Assembly: GCF_007990545.2 (NCBI RefSeq)
Contig: NZ_AP019829.2
Span: 1,426,001 to 1,490,000 of the forward strand
DNA length: 64,000 nt
Direction of reading: 5' to 3'
Origin: Leptotrichia wadei
GTDB taxonomy: Bacteria > Fusobacteriota > Fusobacteriia > Fusobacteriales > Leptotrichiaceae
Part shown: one piece after another, positions 48,543 through 54,422 of the stretch
Numbering within the stretch: the stretch's first letter is position 1
Layout of the letters: each line of letters starts with the position of its first letter
Made by a program: the position numbers and the translations under genes
Notes under the pieces: generated by a model
What the model was told of the DNA's origin: nothing
The model's database searches: none
Seen by the model: the letters and a program-made list of their open reading frames with translations, nothing else

Positions 48543-49583
48543 TTATTCTTGTAACATCTCATCAAAAATTTCTTTTAAATCAATACTCTCAATAATTGAT
48601 TTAAAAATTAATTTTTTTAGTTCTTCTGAAAAAATAACTCTAATTTCATTTTTTTGGCATTCTTCAATTAATTTTGGATTCTCTTCTTCTTTAGCTGGAG
48701 TTATAACCAAAATTTTATCAATTAGTTTTCCATCTTCCCATCCATATTCTTCAGCTTTGTTTACTTGGTCTATAATTATATTAATATTTTCATCAGAAAT
48801 CTCACCTTTGTAATTTTTTACTTGTATAGCTATGTTATAACTTTCTGAAATTGAGATTCCAGGTATATTTACCAAAACATCGGTTCCATGTTCTTCTTCT
48901 TTACTACCACCCGTTTTTTTAATTTTATATCTAGGATAGATTTTTTCTAAAATATCTTTTAATACCTCTTCCCACTGAGAAGCTACAAATTTTTGATTAT
49001 ATTCATCAACAATTTTGTCACAACATTCTTTTAAATTAAAATAAGATTTTACTTGCTCTGATATAATATTTTTTATATTTTCAATAACACTTGTTGATTC
49101 CCTATTTCCTTCTAAATTTTTTATGATTTTTTCAATATCCTCTGAAAAACGACTGATATTCCAAAATCTATTTCTTGCTTTTAACGTACTTTGTATATTT
49201 CCAGAAACATCTTTTCCGTGTCTGTTAAAACATCCAATATATTTTGCAGGAAAAATATGTCCATAATCTTTCTTTTCATCATCAATCTCAAACTTATATC
49301 CTTTTTCTTTATCATCCCAATCTTGAGTTGCTTCAACTATAGCAACACTACCCCAATCTGGCAATCTAGGTATTAACAGTATATCTCCTTTTTTTACATT
49401 ATGATACATGCTTAAATTTTTTCTAGCACCACTATCCTTTGTATCAGGTAGTTCTTGATTTTTATCATATCCCCAACCTTGTCGTAATCGTCCTTGTTCT
49501 AATTCCTTAAAAAAGAAATCTTGATTTTTTACATCAATTCTGTATCCCCAGTAATGCTTTTCTCTTTCTTGTGTATTTTCCAT
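48543..49583 (-). CDS. Mrr-type restriction endonuclease with N-terminal reader-like domain
   Basis: A 346-aa protein. The C-terminal Mrr_cat fold has QWEEVLKDILEKIYP, then GTDVLV with Asp235 and IAIQVKNYKG with Gln254 and Lys256: the D-QxK form of the PD-(D/E)XK site. The N-terminal ~150 residues (HYWGYRID, GRLRQGWGYD, VKKGDILLIPRLPDWGSVAIVEAT, DYGHIFP, RFWNI) look like a PUA/EVE-type reader of modified bases. This design fits a type IV enzyme cutting modified DNA. Last gene of the WYL operon. Confidence 0.85.
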   Translation of the reverse strand: MENTQEREKHYWGYRIDVKNQDFFFKELEQGRLRQGWGYDKNQELPDTKDSGARKNLSMYHNVKKGDILLIPRLPDWGSVAIVEATQDWDDKEKGYKFEIDDEKKDYGHIFPAKYIGCFNRHGKDVSGNIQSTLKARNRFWNISRFSEDIEKIIKNLEGNRESTSVIENIKNIISEQVKSYFNLKECCDKIVDEYNQKFVASQWEEVLKDILEKIYPRYKIKKTGGSKEEEHGTDVLVNIPGISISESYNIAIQVKNYKGEISDENINIIIDQVNKAEEYGWEDGKLIDKILVITPAKEEENPKLIEECQKNEIRVIFSEELKKLIFKSIIESIDLKEIFDEMLQE

Positions 49584-49620
49584 TCTAAATCCCTTCTTTC
49601 TATAATATTAATTAATTTAT

Positions 49621-50328
49621 TTATTTAACTGAATCTTCCACAATGTAAGCAATAATATTTATGAAATTTTCATTTTCTGGATATATTTGCAGTCCCCAAA
49701 GAAATGCCCGCTCATTAAGAATATTAGTCATTATTTTAGCAATATCTTTTATCTGAGTCAATTCAATATTTTTTCCTGCTGTTATATTCAAAAATATTTT
49801 ATAAGTTTTATTTTTATCAAAAGTTTCCAGCTTTAGTTTTAGGTTTTGCAAGAAATCATCAAAAGTTTCTAAATTTCCTTTTTCAAAAATTACGAAAGAT
49901 TTTGAGGTTTTTTGAAATACAGTTTTTAAGTCCGCTAAATCAAGAGTAACCATTCCTTTTGCTGTTAAAGTTTTTGTTATTCCGTTGATTCCATTTTTTA
50001 AATCTTCTGAAGATTTGCATTTTATGATAAAGTCTGTTTTTGAATCAAATAGGTCAGTATAGCCATTTTCAATATCGTAAATGCCAGTAAAAATGTCGTT
50101 TTTTTCAGTGTTTCTGATTATTTCTAAGGCAAAATTTTTATCATTTTCAAAATATGTATTTAAAATTATCAAAATTACATCTGTATCTTGAAAATTTATT
50201 TTTAAATCTTTGTAGTCATTTTTAATTGTAATAATGCTTATATTTTCATGTGTAATTATTTCTTTCTCAATAGTGCTTAGAGCTGTTTCTCCTAAACTTA
50301 TAATTTTTATTTTTGGTATTTTTTCCAT
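49621..50328 (-). CDS. shortened FtsZ paralog without GTP-binding loop
   Basis: A 235-aa protein that aligns with FtsZ over most of its length. LKNGINGITKTLTAKGMVTLDLADLKTVF, in parts, matches the FtsZ helix H7 and T7 loop; Asp130 and Asp133 stand for the catalytic NxDFAD aspartates, with Thr for Asn. NITAG (181-185) and AFLWGLQIYPENENFINIIAYI fit the C-terminal FtsZ domain. The N-terminus keeps the first strand (IKIISLG) but the GGGTGTG loop is replaced by LNTYFENDKN, and ~60 residues are gone, as is the C-terminal tail. It should not bind GTP but might cap FtsZ filaments. AAAGGAG precedes ATG. Confidence 0.75.
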   Translation of the reverse strand: MEKIPKIKIISLGETALSTIEKEIITHENISIITIKNDYKDLKINFQDTDVILIILNTYFENDKNFALEIIRNTEKNDIFTGIYDIENGYTDLFDSKTDFIIKCKSSEDLKNGINGITKTLTAKGMVTLDLADLKTVFQKTSKSFVIFEKGNLETFDDFLQNLKLKLETFDKNKTYKIFLNITAGKNIELTQIKDIAKIMTNILNERAFLWGLQIYPENENFINIIAYIVEDSVK

Positions 50329-50352
50329 AAATTTTCTCCTTTTTATAGAAAT

Positions 50353-51294
50353 TTATTTTAAAATTTTGTATTCAATAACGTAATCTCCCTGACTTCGTAG
50401 CCACATTTCCGCTCCAAAACTTCCATAAACTTCGATTTTTACAGTATAAACTGTAGTTTCCCGATTATTTTCTTTAACTATTTTTTCATCCAATATTTCT
50501 GCAGTTGGAAATTTATCAAGCACATACTCGATATAGCCTCTGTATTTAAATTCTATTCTTGTAAGAGGTCCTAAGTGCATAAAATGTATATATTTTCTAA
50601 ATTCACCATCTTTAAATTTGTCAGAATAATTTAAGATTTTAAATTTTCTGCCTGTATTTTCTATCTTTTTCATTCTATCAATTCTAAAAATTGCAGGATA
50701 TTCTTCTTTATTTTCAATATATCCAATTAGATAAAAATAATATTCAGAAAACATTATTGACAGTGGCTTTATTCTGTATTCTTTATATTGTTTATCTTTT
50801 TTTGTATAATTTAAATGCACCCATTCTTGATTTTTTATACATTGCGCTAATTTCCAAATACTTTCGAGTAGTTTCTGTCCATGTTGTAAAGGAATATAAT
50901 TCACCTTTTCACTATTTATCAAATTTTTTATTATCTCCCTATCGTTTATTGAGGAATTGTTAACTAGTTTCGTTATTAATTTTTCAGTTTCTTCTTTATT
51001 AAAAGCCCGACTTTCAAGGATAATTTTACTTATAGCCAAAAGTTCTTCGTTTGTAAAAGCTATCTTGTCATTCTTTTCAAGATAATAACCTTTTTTTGAA
51101 CTAGAATATTTTATATCCGATTCACCTTCTTCAAAAAAATAATTCCTCAAAGTAGCTATATCTCGTTGTATCGTTTTTTTATCGACTTTAAATTCATTAG
51201 CTAAATCACTTCTATTCACTATCTCTTTTTGATTCAACCTTTTCATTATTTTTAATATTCTAATTGATTTTTCCTCAGAATTTTCATTTTTCAT
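50353..51294 (-). CDS. WYL-domain transcriptional regulator
   Basis: A 313-aa regulator. An N-terminal helix-turn-helix (EIVNRSDLANEFKVDKKTIQRDIATLRNY) is followed by a WYL domain near 150-230 (WVHLNYTKK, YRIKPLSIMFSEYYFYLIGY, IFRIDRMKKI) and the WCX extension. WYL proteins such as BrxR and CapW control phage-defence operons and may sense nucleic acid or nucleotides. It is the second gene of the operon with the FtsZ-like and Mrr genes; the palindrome at 52551-52567 is its likely site. Confidence 0.9.
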   Translation of the reverse strand: MKNENSEEKSIRILKIMKRLNQKEIVNRSDLANEFKVDKKTIQRDIATLRNYFFEEGESDIKYSSSKKGYYLEKNDKIAFTNEELLAISKIILESRAFNKEETEKLITKLVNNSSINDREIIKNLINSEKVNYIPLQHGQKLLESIWKLAQCIKNQEWVHLNYTKKDKQYKEYRIKPLSIMFSEYYFYLIGYIENKEEYPAIFRIDRMKKIENTGRKFKILNYSDKFKDGEFRKYIHFMHLGPLTRIEFKYRGYIEYVLDKFPTAEILDEKIVKENNRETTVYTVKIEVYGSFGAEMWLRSQGDYVIEYKILK

Positions 51295-51368
51295 GATTAA
51301 GATTAAGCCTTTCTAAAAAATTTTTCTCAACGTTTTAATTATACCTTGATTTATCACTTTTTCAAAAT

Positions 51369-52499
51369 TTAAAACTTTTTCCTAATTTTTCTTTTACTTC
51401 GAAATCTTTTCTTTAATCTCTTTTCTTCAAAATATTCTACATATTCCTCTCTTATGTCTCTACAATTTTTCATTTTATTAAATTTCTCAATTTTTTCCGT
51501 TATTTTATCAACCATTTTTTTTATATCTTTTAATGAACTATCTAGATTTACTGCAAAACACATTAATGGAATTTCATTATTTTCACAATCAATATCTTCA
51601 TAATTAACTTCCTTAAAATCAGGAAATATATCTTTTAATTCTTTCTGAATTAATTTTATTGTCTTTTCTTCGACTTTATTATTATTAAACCATTTTAACA
51701 AAAAATAATTATTTGTTTTTTTATCTTCTGCAATTAAATTTACACAAAAGCATTCTATAAAAAATTCATGTTTCAACCATTTTATATAATCAAAACAACG
51801 ATATACATCATAATCTTCAAATTTTTTATTTATATAACTTTCTAAAACTAAATATAAAGATAAATTTTCGTTAATATTTACACCAAAATTTTTCTTATTT
51901 TCCTGATTAATTTGATTGTAATAACTGTCAAAAATACTGTCATCTATATATTTTTTTGAATTTTCAAATAAAGTTAAAAATTTTTCTTTATCGTATAAAA
52001 TATTTATTTCTTCTACTTCTTCCTTTTCATACCTAGAAATTAAATCAGATGAAAAATGAACAATTTTTACATTATTCTCTTCGTTTTCTTTTAAATTCTC
52101 ATATTTTTTTAATAATTTAATTAATTTCCCATTGTATTCATTAAAATCTTTTGAATATTCGTAATAACTAAAATCTCTGAAATATATATATTTTCTGTTT
52201 CCATTTTGATTCCTATTTAAAATTAACAAAATCGGACAATCACCTAAAATTCTATCAATAAAAGTTCCATTTTCAGAATAATAATTTTTATTTGAAAAAT
52301 GTATCTCAATATCTTCTGTAGTTAACTTTTCTCCTAAAATTTCCTCAATAAATTTTTTTGCCATATTTTTTAAAGCCACCTTACTACTATTATTTGTAGT
52401 CTCAACATTTAACCATTTTATCATCCAATATAAAAAAATATCGGTATCAAACTCAGCGTTATAAAAAGCATCATTTTTAACTAATTTTACATTACTCAT
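51369..52499 (-). CDS. unknown 376-aa protein, possibly a degenerate PD-(D/E)XK protein
   Basis: First gene of the WYL operon. I do not recognise it with certainty. The N-terminal layout (FDTDIFLYWMIKWLNVE, then FIEEILG, FIDRILGDCPILLILN, a Tyr-rich strand and KLLKKYENLK) recalls PDDEXK_4 nucleases, but the ExK pair is not visible. The middle is helical and acidic; the tail is very basic (KRLKKRFRSKRKIRKKF), fit for nucleic-acid binding. No signal or membrane segment. ATG at 52499 follows GAGGAG and GGGG. Confidence 0.7.
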   Translation of the reverse strand: MSNVKLVKNDAFYNAEFDTDIFLYWMIKWLNVETTNNSSKVALKNMAKKFIEEILGEKLTTEDIEIHFSNKNYYSENGTFIDRILGDCPILLILNRNQNGNRKYIYFRDFSYYEYSKDFNEYNGKLIKLLKKYENLKENEENNVKIVHFSSDLISRYEKEEVEEINILYDKEKFLTLFENSKKYIDDSIFDSYYNQINQENKKNFGVNINENLSLYLVLESYINKKFEDYDVYRCFDYIKWLKHEFFIECFCVNLIAEDKKTNNYFLLKWFNNNKVEEKTIKLIQKELKDIFPDFKEVNYEDIDCENNEIPLMCFAVNLDSSLKDIKKMVDKITEKIEKFNKMKNCRDIREEYVEYFEEKRLKKRFRSKRKIRKKF

Positions 52500-52534
52500 T
52501 TTCCCCATCTCCTCAACTTTATTTTTGTTATTTA

Positions 52535-52567
52535 ATTATACTTTTTATATGAGACACATTTTGTCTC
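52535..52567 (-). promoter_or_regulatory. promoter and palindromic operator of the WYL operon
   Basis: Minus-strand TATAAT (52535-52540) lies ~36 nt before the first gene. The -35 region is poor and is covered by the perfect palindrome GAGACA-CATTT-TGTCTC (52551-52567). This is where an activator or repressor would bind; the WYL protein is the obvious candidate. Confidence 0.65.
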
Positions 52568-52979: not shown

Positions 52980-54422
52980 ATGAATAAATTTATAAATGGA
53001 AATTTGCTAAAAATGAATACAGAAGAATTTCTGTCTAATATAAAGAAAGCTTTCAATGATGTTTTTTCAAATGGAAATATTGAGAAAATAAACTTAATGA
53101 ACTATTTGTCAGAGAAGAAATGGTTAAGTATAAAAAAATGTGGACTTTTACTGCCCTTTCTACCAGAAAAATTTGGAGGAAGAAAAAATAGTCAGCTTGA
53201 AATTCAGGAAGTTCTTAGAATCGCTGGGAACTATGGTGTACCAGTTACACTTAGAACAGGAATTGAAGGAGCATTAGTATTGCAGCCGCTTCTTGAATAT
53301 GGGAATGAGGAGCAAATTGAAAAAGGTTTGGAAATGATATTTAACGGAGAAGGTGGAGGACTGGCTATAACAGAGCCTGAAACTTCTGGATCTGCTATCG
53401 CAAAAGAAATGCAGTCTTACTATGAATATGTTGATGAAAATACAATTCATGTTAAAGCTGATAAATATTGGCAAGGAAATTCTCAAAGTGATTTTTTATT
53501 AATTGCCGCAAAGGAAAAGAAAGAAGGTAAATTATCAAAAGTAATCAGCTTAATTTTAGTTCCAAGAGAATATATAACTTATGATGTACTAAATTCGGAA
53601 GGTTTAAAAGCAGTAAGATATGCTGTAAATCATGTTGATGCAAAGATTCCTGCAAAATATATAATAAAACTTTCAGAAAACAGGGCAAATTGTCTTAGAG
53701 AATTTCAAAATATCTTTATAAGAAGCCGATTGCAACTAGTTGGAATGACACATGGAATTATGGAATATATTGTAAAAAATATAAATAAATTTGCCAGAAA
53801 AGAAATACCATTTGTTCAAAATGAATTAAATGAAATCGAAAATACTTACGATATATCAAAAATTATGTATAGCTATACTTGCAATAATGTCTCTCCAGAT
53901 AAGTCTGTTTCAGATAAATTAATGGAAGCAAATATTATAAAGAGCCTTGCTACTGAATATACTTACAAGGCATCGAGAATCGCACAAAAACTTCTAGGGG
54001 CAAAAGGATTTGAAGCTGGGCATCCAATGAGTAATGTGGCAATTGACTTTAGACCATTTACTATCTTTGAAGGTCCAAATGATATGCTTTATTCAGAAAT
54101 TTATGATCAGTTTTCAAAAGCTACGGCTGTGGAAAAGAAGGAGGGAATCCGAATTAATAAAAATTCTACGATTTATGAAAGATTTATTTTGGATAAACGA
54201 TTTGAAAATATATCTGTAAATAATATTGTTAATAAAGTAGACGATTTAATCAGTTTTCTAAAACATCATACATTAAATGAGATGGATCAGATAAAAAAAG
54301 TTTTTGTTGGGAAAATACTAGCAAGATTGTTTCTTTTAATTCAAACAGAATCAGATAATTTAATAAAATTTTTGATAAGGGATATTAGAAAAGATATTTT
54401 GGATTTTGAATATAATAGTTAG
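52980..54422 (+). CDS. acyl-CoA dehydrogenase-family flavoprotein
   Basis: A 480-aa ACAD-family protein, about 90 residues longer than usual at the C-terminus. N-terminal helices lead to LPEKFGG, the FAD/substrate strand GGGLAITEPETSGSA, and the C-terminal IARIAQKLLGAKGFEAGHPM-type helix with FTIFEGPNDML, where the usual catalytic Glu motif YEGT is kept as FEGP. It stands alone, without CoA ligase or electron-transfer flavoprotein genes, so beta-oxidation is unlikely; a reductase or biosynthetic role is possible. GGAGGAG precedes ATG. Confidence 0.8.
   Translation: MNKFINGNLLKMNTEEFLSNIKKAFNDVFSNGNIEKINLMNYLSEKKWLSIKKCGLLLPFLPEKFGGRKNSQLEIQEVLRIAGNYGVPVTLRTGIEGALVLQPLLEYGNEEQIEKGLEMIFNGEGGGLAITEPETSGSAIAKEMQSYYEYVDENTIHVKADKYWQGNSQSDFLLIAAKEKKEGKLSKVISLILVPREYITYDVLNSEGLKAVRYAVNHVDAKIPAKYIIKLSENRANCLREFQNIFIRSRLQLVGMTHGIMEYIVKNINKFARKEIPFVQNELNEIENTYDISKIMYSYTCNNVSPDKSVSDKLMEANIIKSLATEYTYKASRIAQKLLGAKGFEAGHPMSNVAIDFRPFTIFEGPNDMLYSEIYDQFSKATAVEKKEGIRINKNSTIYERFILDKRFENISVNNIVNKVDDLISFLKHHTLNEMDQIKKVFVGKILARLFLLIQTESDNLIKFLIRDIRKDILDFEYNS

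Follow-up and report, generated by a model that had tools for sequence, protein, structure and literature searches.

A conserved GACA-N5-TGTC dyad at the head of an operon in Leptotrichia wadei is a likely operator of the operon's own WYL protein

Which protein acts on the perfect inverted repeat in front of a WYL-containing operon of Leptotrichia wadei, and does it switch the operon on or off? The window analysed here, i.e., the whole stretch of 64,000 nucleotides, carries on its minus strand the promoter of an operon that encodes an HTH_11-WYL regulator among other proteins (Table 1), and this promoter contains the 6-5-6 dyad GAGACACATTTTGTCTC. The first-pass annotation had described an exact GAGACA-N5-TGTCTC palindrome at 52551-52567, just upstream of TATAAT and in a place where the -35 hexamer is poor. 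All of this was confirmed; the repeat lies exactly there, the -10 box downstream of it is perfect and, at a spacing of 16-18 bp, no -35 candidate matches more than two of six positions. Taking TATAAT as -12 to -7, the inner part of the dyad occupies about -37 to -25. The promoter had been assigned to the "WYL operon", which is correct in that the dyad heads an operon containing the WYL gene, but the first gene of this operon encodes a 379-aa protein and not the regulator.

Table 1 Coordinates of the dyad, the promoter elements and the genes of the operon in the window
Feature	Position	Strand	Remarks
Dyad and proposed WYL binding site	52551-52567	-	Core GACA-N5-TGTC at 52553-52565; from sequence and conservation
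-10 box of the operon promoter, TATAAT	52535-52540	-	Follows the dyad core after 12 bp; -35 hexamer not recognisable
First gene, 379-aa protein	51369-52508	-	No Pfam match at E 0.1; hhalign E 1.3e-8 to PDDEXK_4 paralogue
Internal promoter-like site of the WYL gene	51338-51365	-	TTGAAA 51360-51365, N16, TATAAT 51338-51343; dyad-free
HTH_11-WYL regulator, 313 aa	50353-51294	-	HTH_11 E 3.3e-7, WYL E 4.9e-11
FtsZL, 235 aa	49621-50328	-	FtsZ-derived in its C-terminal half, with T7-like LDLADLKTV; without the GTPase signature
Mrr-like restriction-endonuclease-like protein, 346 aa	48543-49583	-	Mrr_cat E 0.0026, below cut-off

As a bare repeat, the dyad is unremarkable. The window is AT-rich (28.9% GC) and holds 57 exact 6-5-6 dyads, 10 of them with at least two and 3 with at least three G/C per arm. 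GAGACA-N5-TGTCTC has a single match at up to two mismatches in the whole window, namely the dyad itself, and 0.94 such matches are expected in the shuffled window, so that the dyad alone is not beyond chance; in the 2.34 Mb genome it is also the only occurrence at up to one mismatch. The abundance of such repeats would be compatible with a repeat that arose by chance or with an RNA hairpin, in either case without a regulatory role, which we consider very improbable. The dyad lies upstream of the predicted start and would therefore not be in the RNA of this promoter, which speaks against the hairpin, and a chance dyad was rejected because of conservation, on which its significance depends.

The conserved unit is the inner GACA-N5-TGTC, while the outer two base pairs of the 6-bp arms vary and are not retained in every close relative. 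In a search across the phylum (98 genomes), 22 WYL matches reached E 1e-20 or better, spread over 19 genomes. Of these 22 relatives (window counted), 18 have the core in the 3 kb before the WYL gene, down to 40% identity; dinucleotide shuffles (300 runs) gave a mean of 0.25 and a maximum of 2 of 22, and three control words gave 2 matches in 66 tests. Absence of the dyad from orthologous promoters had been named as what would refute an operator of the WYL protein, and it is not absent, as the core with a -10 box stands upstream in 10 of 11 close orthologues (68-100% identity, window counted) and in 8 of 11 distant relatives (39-58% identity). This box is TATAAA at G049 and G077 and TATAAT at the other core-bearing loci. 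At the 10 close core-bearing loci, which are near relatives and not independent, neither the eight core bases nor TATAAT vary, in contrast to the outer arm bases. Three loci (G087, G077 and G075) were found only after the motif had been fixed, and the first two of them have it. The dyad is also kept between the window and G019 despite near-saturated synonymous sites in the WYL gene (dS about 2.1), which argues against chance as well.

The association of the core with the regulator extends to WYL genes with 40-48% identity whose operons are different in other respects. In G038, G049, G077 and G087, the dyad is found 60-73 bp before the WYL gene itself, and in G048 the core lies 2.66 kb upstream of it, heading a row of genes for a radical-SAM (NrdG-like) protein, NRDD, HEPN and WYL. 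In G003 the first gene has been lost and the dyad and -10 box are retained with the WYL gene. On the basis of these occurrences, the earlier proposal that the dyad is an operator of the operon's own WYL protein is supported, and we regard it as likely. G004, G026, G075 and G044 have no core in the 3 kb before the WYL gene, and the dyad is absent from two Clostridia WYL relatives of 49-50% identity whose recognition helix is almost the same and from three weaker WYL matches outside the 22 (the broken fragment of G001, G024 and G032). In G004 the upstream region is different, and a gene for a 299-aa FtsZ paralogue (L029:3276-4175) is located directly upstream of the dyad-less operon. In the dyad-less locus of G026 (L036:6142-7185), the WYL protein differs from its relatives in the C-terminal part, which is similar to a segment of the PDDEXK_4 paralogue of the operon (at about 45-48% identity).

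A role of the dyad as operator of the divergent gene at 52980, which is acyl-CoA-dehydrogenase-like, was rejected; this gene is preceded by a TTGTCA-N17-TATAAT of its own, and at the 10 close dyad-bearing loci the far-side neighbour is of five kinds, while the dyad stays with the operon.

A search of 60 genomes for the motif with TATAAT at 11-13 bp gave 26 places, compared with 6 for the reversed control, and 15 of them belong to WYL operons, 14 as judged from a tblastn match within 1.5 kb and the one in G048 from the order of its genes. The other 11 places, outside the operons of this WYL family, could suggest that some other regulator binds the dyad and that its closeness to WYL genes is secondary; binding by the WYL protein is itself a prediction from sequence. 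This alternative is improbable, since these 11 places are not far above the control count of 6, the association with WYL genes holds at 40-48% identity in different operons, and the window site is the sole one of 22 core sites in the organism's own genome (G000) with TATAAT at 11-13 bp. By itself, the core shows no genome-wide enrichment, with 22 sites against 22 for the control in G000 and 22 against 50 in G019. The other 21 sites in G000 comprise 15 in reading frames or long stop-free frames, 5 in one shared 13-mer and 1 that is intergenic and without a -10 box; of 13 core sites that were fetched, 12 are inside reading frames and the remaining one is this intergenic site, three further sites are in stop-free frames of at least 406 codons, and one copy of the 13-mer was checked and is 16S rRNA, the other four being assigned by 13-mer identity. 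No further target, and thus no wider regulon in the own genome, is supported among the 22 core sites. In G019, three places with motif and TATAAT were found beyond its two WYL operons. One of these (L071:5399) is flanked by a methyladenine glycosylase gene and by a divergent gene whose product is weakly (30%) like the HTH end of a WYL-like protein, and it is taken as a lead only because such places are near background overall. One WYL gene of the same genome (L038:5605-8344) has the same upstream motif and is followed by a NERD-UvrD helicase gene.

The promoters that carry the core have a common geometry. In each of the 18, the closest -35 candidate at a spacing of 16-18 bp matches one to three of six positions, and the distance from the core to the -10 box is 12 bp in 12 promoters, 11 bp in 3 and 13 bp in 3. 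In a control within the window, 34 TATAAT boxes precede long reading frames, though many of these boxes need not be promoters; only 7 of them have at least four -35 matches, and because of this proportion, the absence of a -35 hexamer alone is weak evidence for activation. The WYL gene has in addition an internal promoter-like site, which is kept in 11 of 11 close relatives, including the dyad-less G004, as TTGAAA or TTGACA, a spacing of 16-17 bp and TATAAT. Since this separate site is dyad-free, the dyad would govern the front of the operon and not all WYL expression, and production of the regulator need not depend on the dyad promoter, as would be expected of a sensor that is always present.

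A similar promoter arrangement has been described for DriD of Caulobacter crescentus, an HTH-WYL protein like the regulator of this operon. DriD is an activator that is itself activated by ssDNA, and didA, bapE, recJ and dnaG are among its targets, which include a division inhibitor and an endonuclease. Its consensus, ATACGAC(X)7GTCGTAT, is placed over the -35 region at a fixed distance to the -10 box, with -35 matches of one to two of six (PMC12340889), and a core over a poor -35 at a near-constant distance of this kind is likewise seen in 18 of 18 core-bearing promoters here. The DriD core GAC-N7-GTC is the same as that within GACA-N5-TGTC, whereas the outer arms differ. The published probe for DriD holds an exact GACA-N5-TGTC, and the site in the driD promoter differs from it in one of eight bases, with a -10 box that by our counting lies about 11 bp after the half-site, compared with 11-13 bp here; in the didA and bapE promoters the agreement with the core is poor, with three and two mismatches of eight, respectively, at best.

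On the protein side, Foldseek with a predicted model of the WYL protein gave DriD chains as the top three matches (best E 4e-8, over about the whole length; model mean pLDDT 60, TM-scores about 0.3), and the arrangement of wHTH, WYL domain and C-terminal extension known from DriD was also found in this regulator. Profile comparison with DriD (8tp8) gave a non-significant E of 0.27, and nothing was found for the WYL protein among PDB sequences at 0.01 by phmmer or profile. Residues R44-D45 of the recognition helix and R204-x-D206-R207 of the WYL domain are invariant in 13 of 13 aligned relatives, and R204 and R207 line up with DriD arginines in the profile alignment at E 0.27. On this evidence the regulator appears to work like DriD, which is short of proof that it is a DriD-type protein. 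There are also differences between the systems. DriD controls scattered genes, whereas the regulator here is inside its own target operon. DidA, the division inhibitor under DriD, acts on FtsN/FtsW/FtsI, and FtsZ rings are reportedly not disrupted by it. In keeping with the separate promoter-like site of the WYL gene here, the level of tagged DriD is reportedly unchanged on damage (PMC4211646). From the missing -35 and the DriD-like geometry, it seems more probable that the dyad is an activator site of a DriD-like, probably ssDNA-sensing WYL protein than a classical repressor operator.

CapW is a WYL repressor of phage-defence operons, and the operon resembles those of CapW and BrxR in that a WYL regulator and an inverted repeat head a cassette-like operon with nuclease-like genes. 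It might be supposed that the WYL protein acts as a repressor and, bound to the dyad, keeps the promoter closed as long as no ligand (perhaps ssDNA) has released it, in the manner proposed for CapW and BrxR with defence operons, and we consider this rather unlikely. The dyad does overlap the expected place of sigma region 4, the four distant loci with the dyad shortly before the WYL gene also fit auto-repression, and BrxR and CapW are among the Foldseek matches of the model (pLDDT 60), though both are outranked by DriD and PafBC. BrxR was reported to bind inverted repeats near its own promoter and to repress it (PMC9122601). Its repeats, however, are 11 bp long, have a 5-bp spacer between them and are located after the predicted -10, unlike the 4-5-4 core here, which is upstream of the -10 box at the -35 place, and in this promoter there is no recognisable -35 for a repressor to block. 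The mycobacterial PafBC and SiwR are WYL activators that act in the promoter region from -35 to -10. PafBC is a heterodimer on a non-palindromic -26 motif, compared with a palindromic core and one WYL gene in the operon here, and SiwR has a 19-bp palindrome spanning from the -10 to the -35 region (for WYL comparisons, see also PMC11804915, PMC10693628 and PMC6789036). A literature search over titles and abstract openings gave, among the matches listed, no description of this operon or of a WYL operator in these bacteria.

If the dyad is an activator site, the WYL protein would be produced at a basal level from its internal promoter, and its dimer would settle over the missing -35 when the WYL domain is loaded, probably with ssDNA from damaged or invading genomes. 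The loaded dimer would then anchor RNA polymerase on a promoter that has a -10 box only, by which the whole operon, i.e., the genes of the PDDEXK_4-related protein, the WYL protein, the truncated FtsZ and the nuclease-like protein, may be switched on, and from the nature of these products we infer division arrest and attack on DNA as the effect.

The composition of the operon varies among relatives. Judging from the alignment with its PDDEXK_4 paralogue, the 379-aa protein has apparently lost the catalytic motif. The slot after FtsZL is filled by the Mrr-like protein or, in some relatives, by a PDDEXK_4 paralogue of the 379-aa protein, and FtsZL is missing in G019 and broken in G007. Synonymous divergence from G010, G009 and G005 is 0.08-0.16 for FtsZL, compared with 0.72-0.79 for the WYL gene and 0.80-0.86 for the first gene, and from G019 it is 0.26 for the gene of the Mrr-like protein against the near-saturated value of the WYL gene given above. 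Because neighbouring genes differ so strongly, the operon (48543-52508, together with loci L026-L035) is read as a mosaic with module exchange under a kept promoter, as in defence systems. PADLOC matched only the WYL protein, with two WYL models (E 9.9e-25 and 2.9e-18) and Cas3c (E 1.4e-7), and the Mrr-like protein, with a weak AbiEii match (E 0.0046), and recognised no known defence system in the operon.

FtsZL aligns with FtsZ by its C-terminal half only (TIGR00065 E 7.8e-9, PDB FtsZ E 3.4e-8). The glycine-rich loop of FtsZ is missing from it in the alignment, and it has no match to the GTPase domain PF00091 at E 0.1 and thus lacks this mark of FtsZ. Its predicted structure was set aside because of a mean pLDDT of 50.7 and the lack of a fold match at E 0.001, and FtsZL had no match in phages and plasmids at E 1e-5. 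Five FtsZ-like matches were observed in the organism's own genome (G000:C1, at 178160, 179853, 1203735, 1475624 and 2229911), with open frames of 319, 286, 325, 243 and 378 aa. There are 2-6 such matches per genome in 13 genomes of this genus, the count of 6 in G007 including two pieces of the broken FtsZL, and 0-3 in the 47 others searched; judged from these matches, FtsZ paralogues are expanded in this genus. In general, an FtsZ fragment that keeps the T7/C-terminal half could cap FtsZ filaments. It may be speculated, with considerable doubt, that a DriD-like ssDNA-sensing activator drives the entire cassette, that a GTPase-dead FtsZ fragment caps the host FtsZ through its T7/C-terminal half and halts division, and that exchangeable nuclease modules act on DNA, in which case a damage checkpoint would have been turned into a defence system with a site code shared with Caulobacter.

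DNA damage or phage attack could thus switch on nuclease-like proteins and a stripped-down FtsZ in these bacteria. If the activator reading is true, the promoter logic of DriD, with GAC-N7-GTC over a missing -35, would belong to a more general WYL code, recognisable from sequence and extending beyond Caulobacter, and ssDNA- or damage-responsive operons would become predictable in little-studied bacteria. The operon would then add an FtsZ-derived candidate division inhibitor with swappable nuclease-like modules, and with it a connection of the damage response to phage defence that can be tested.
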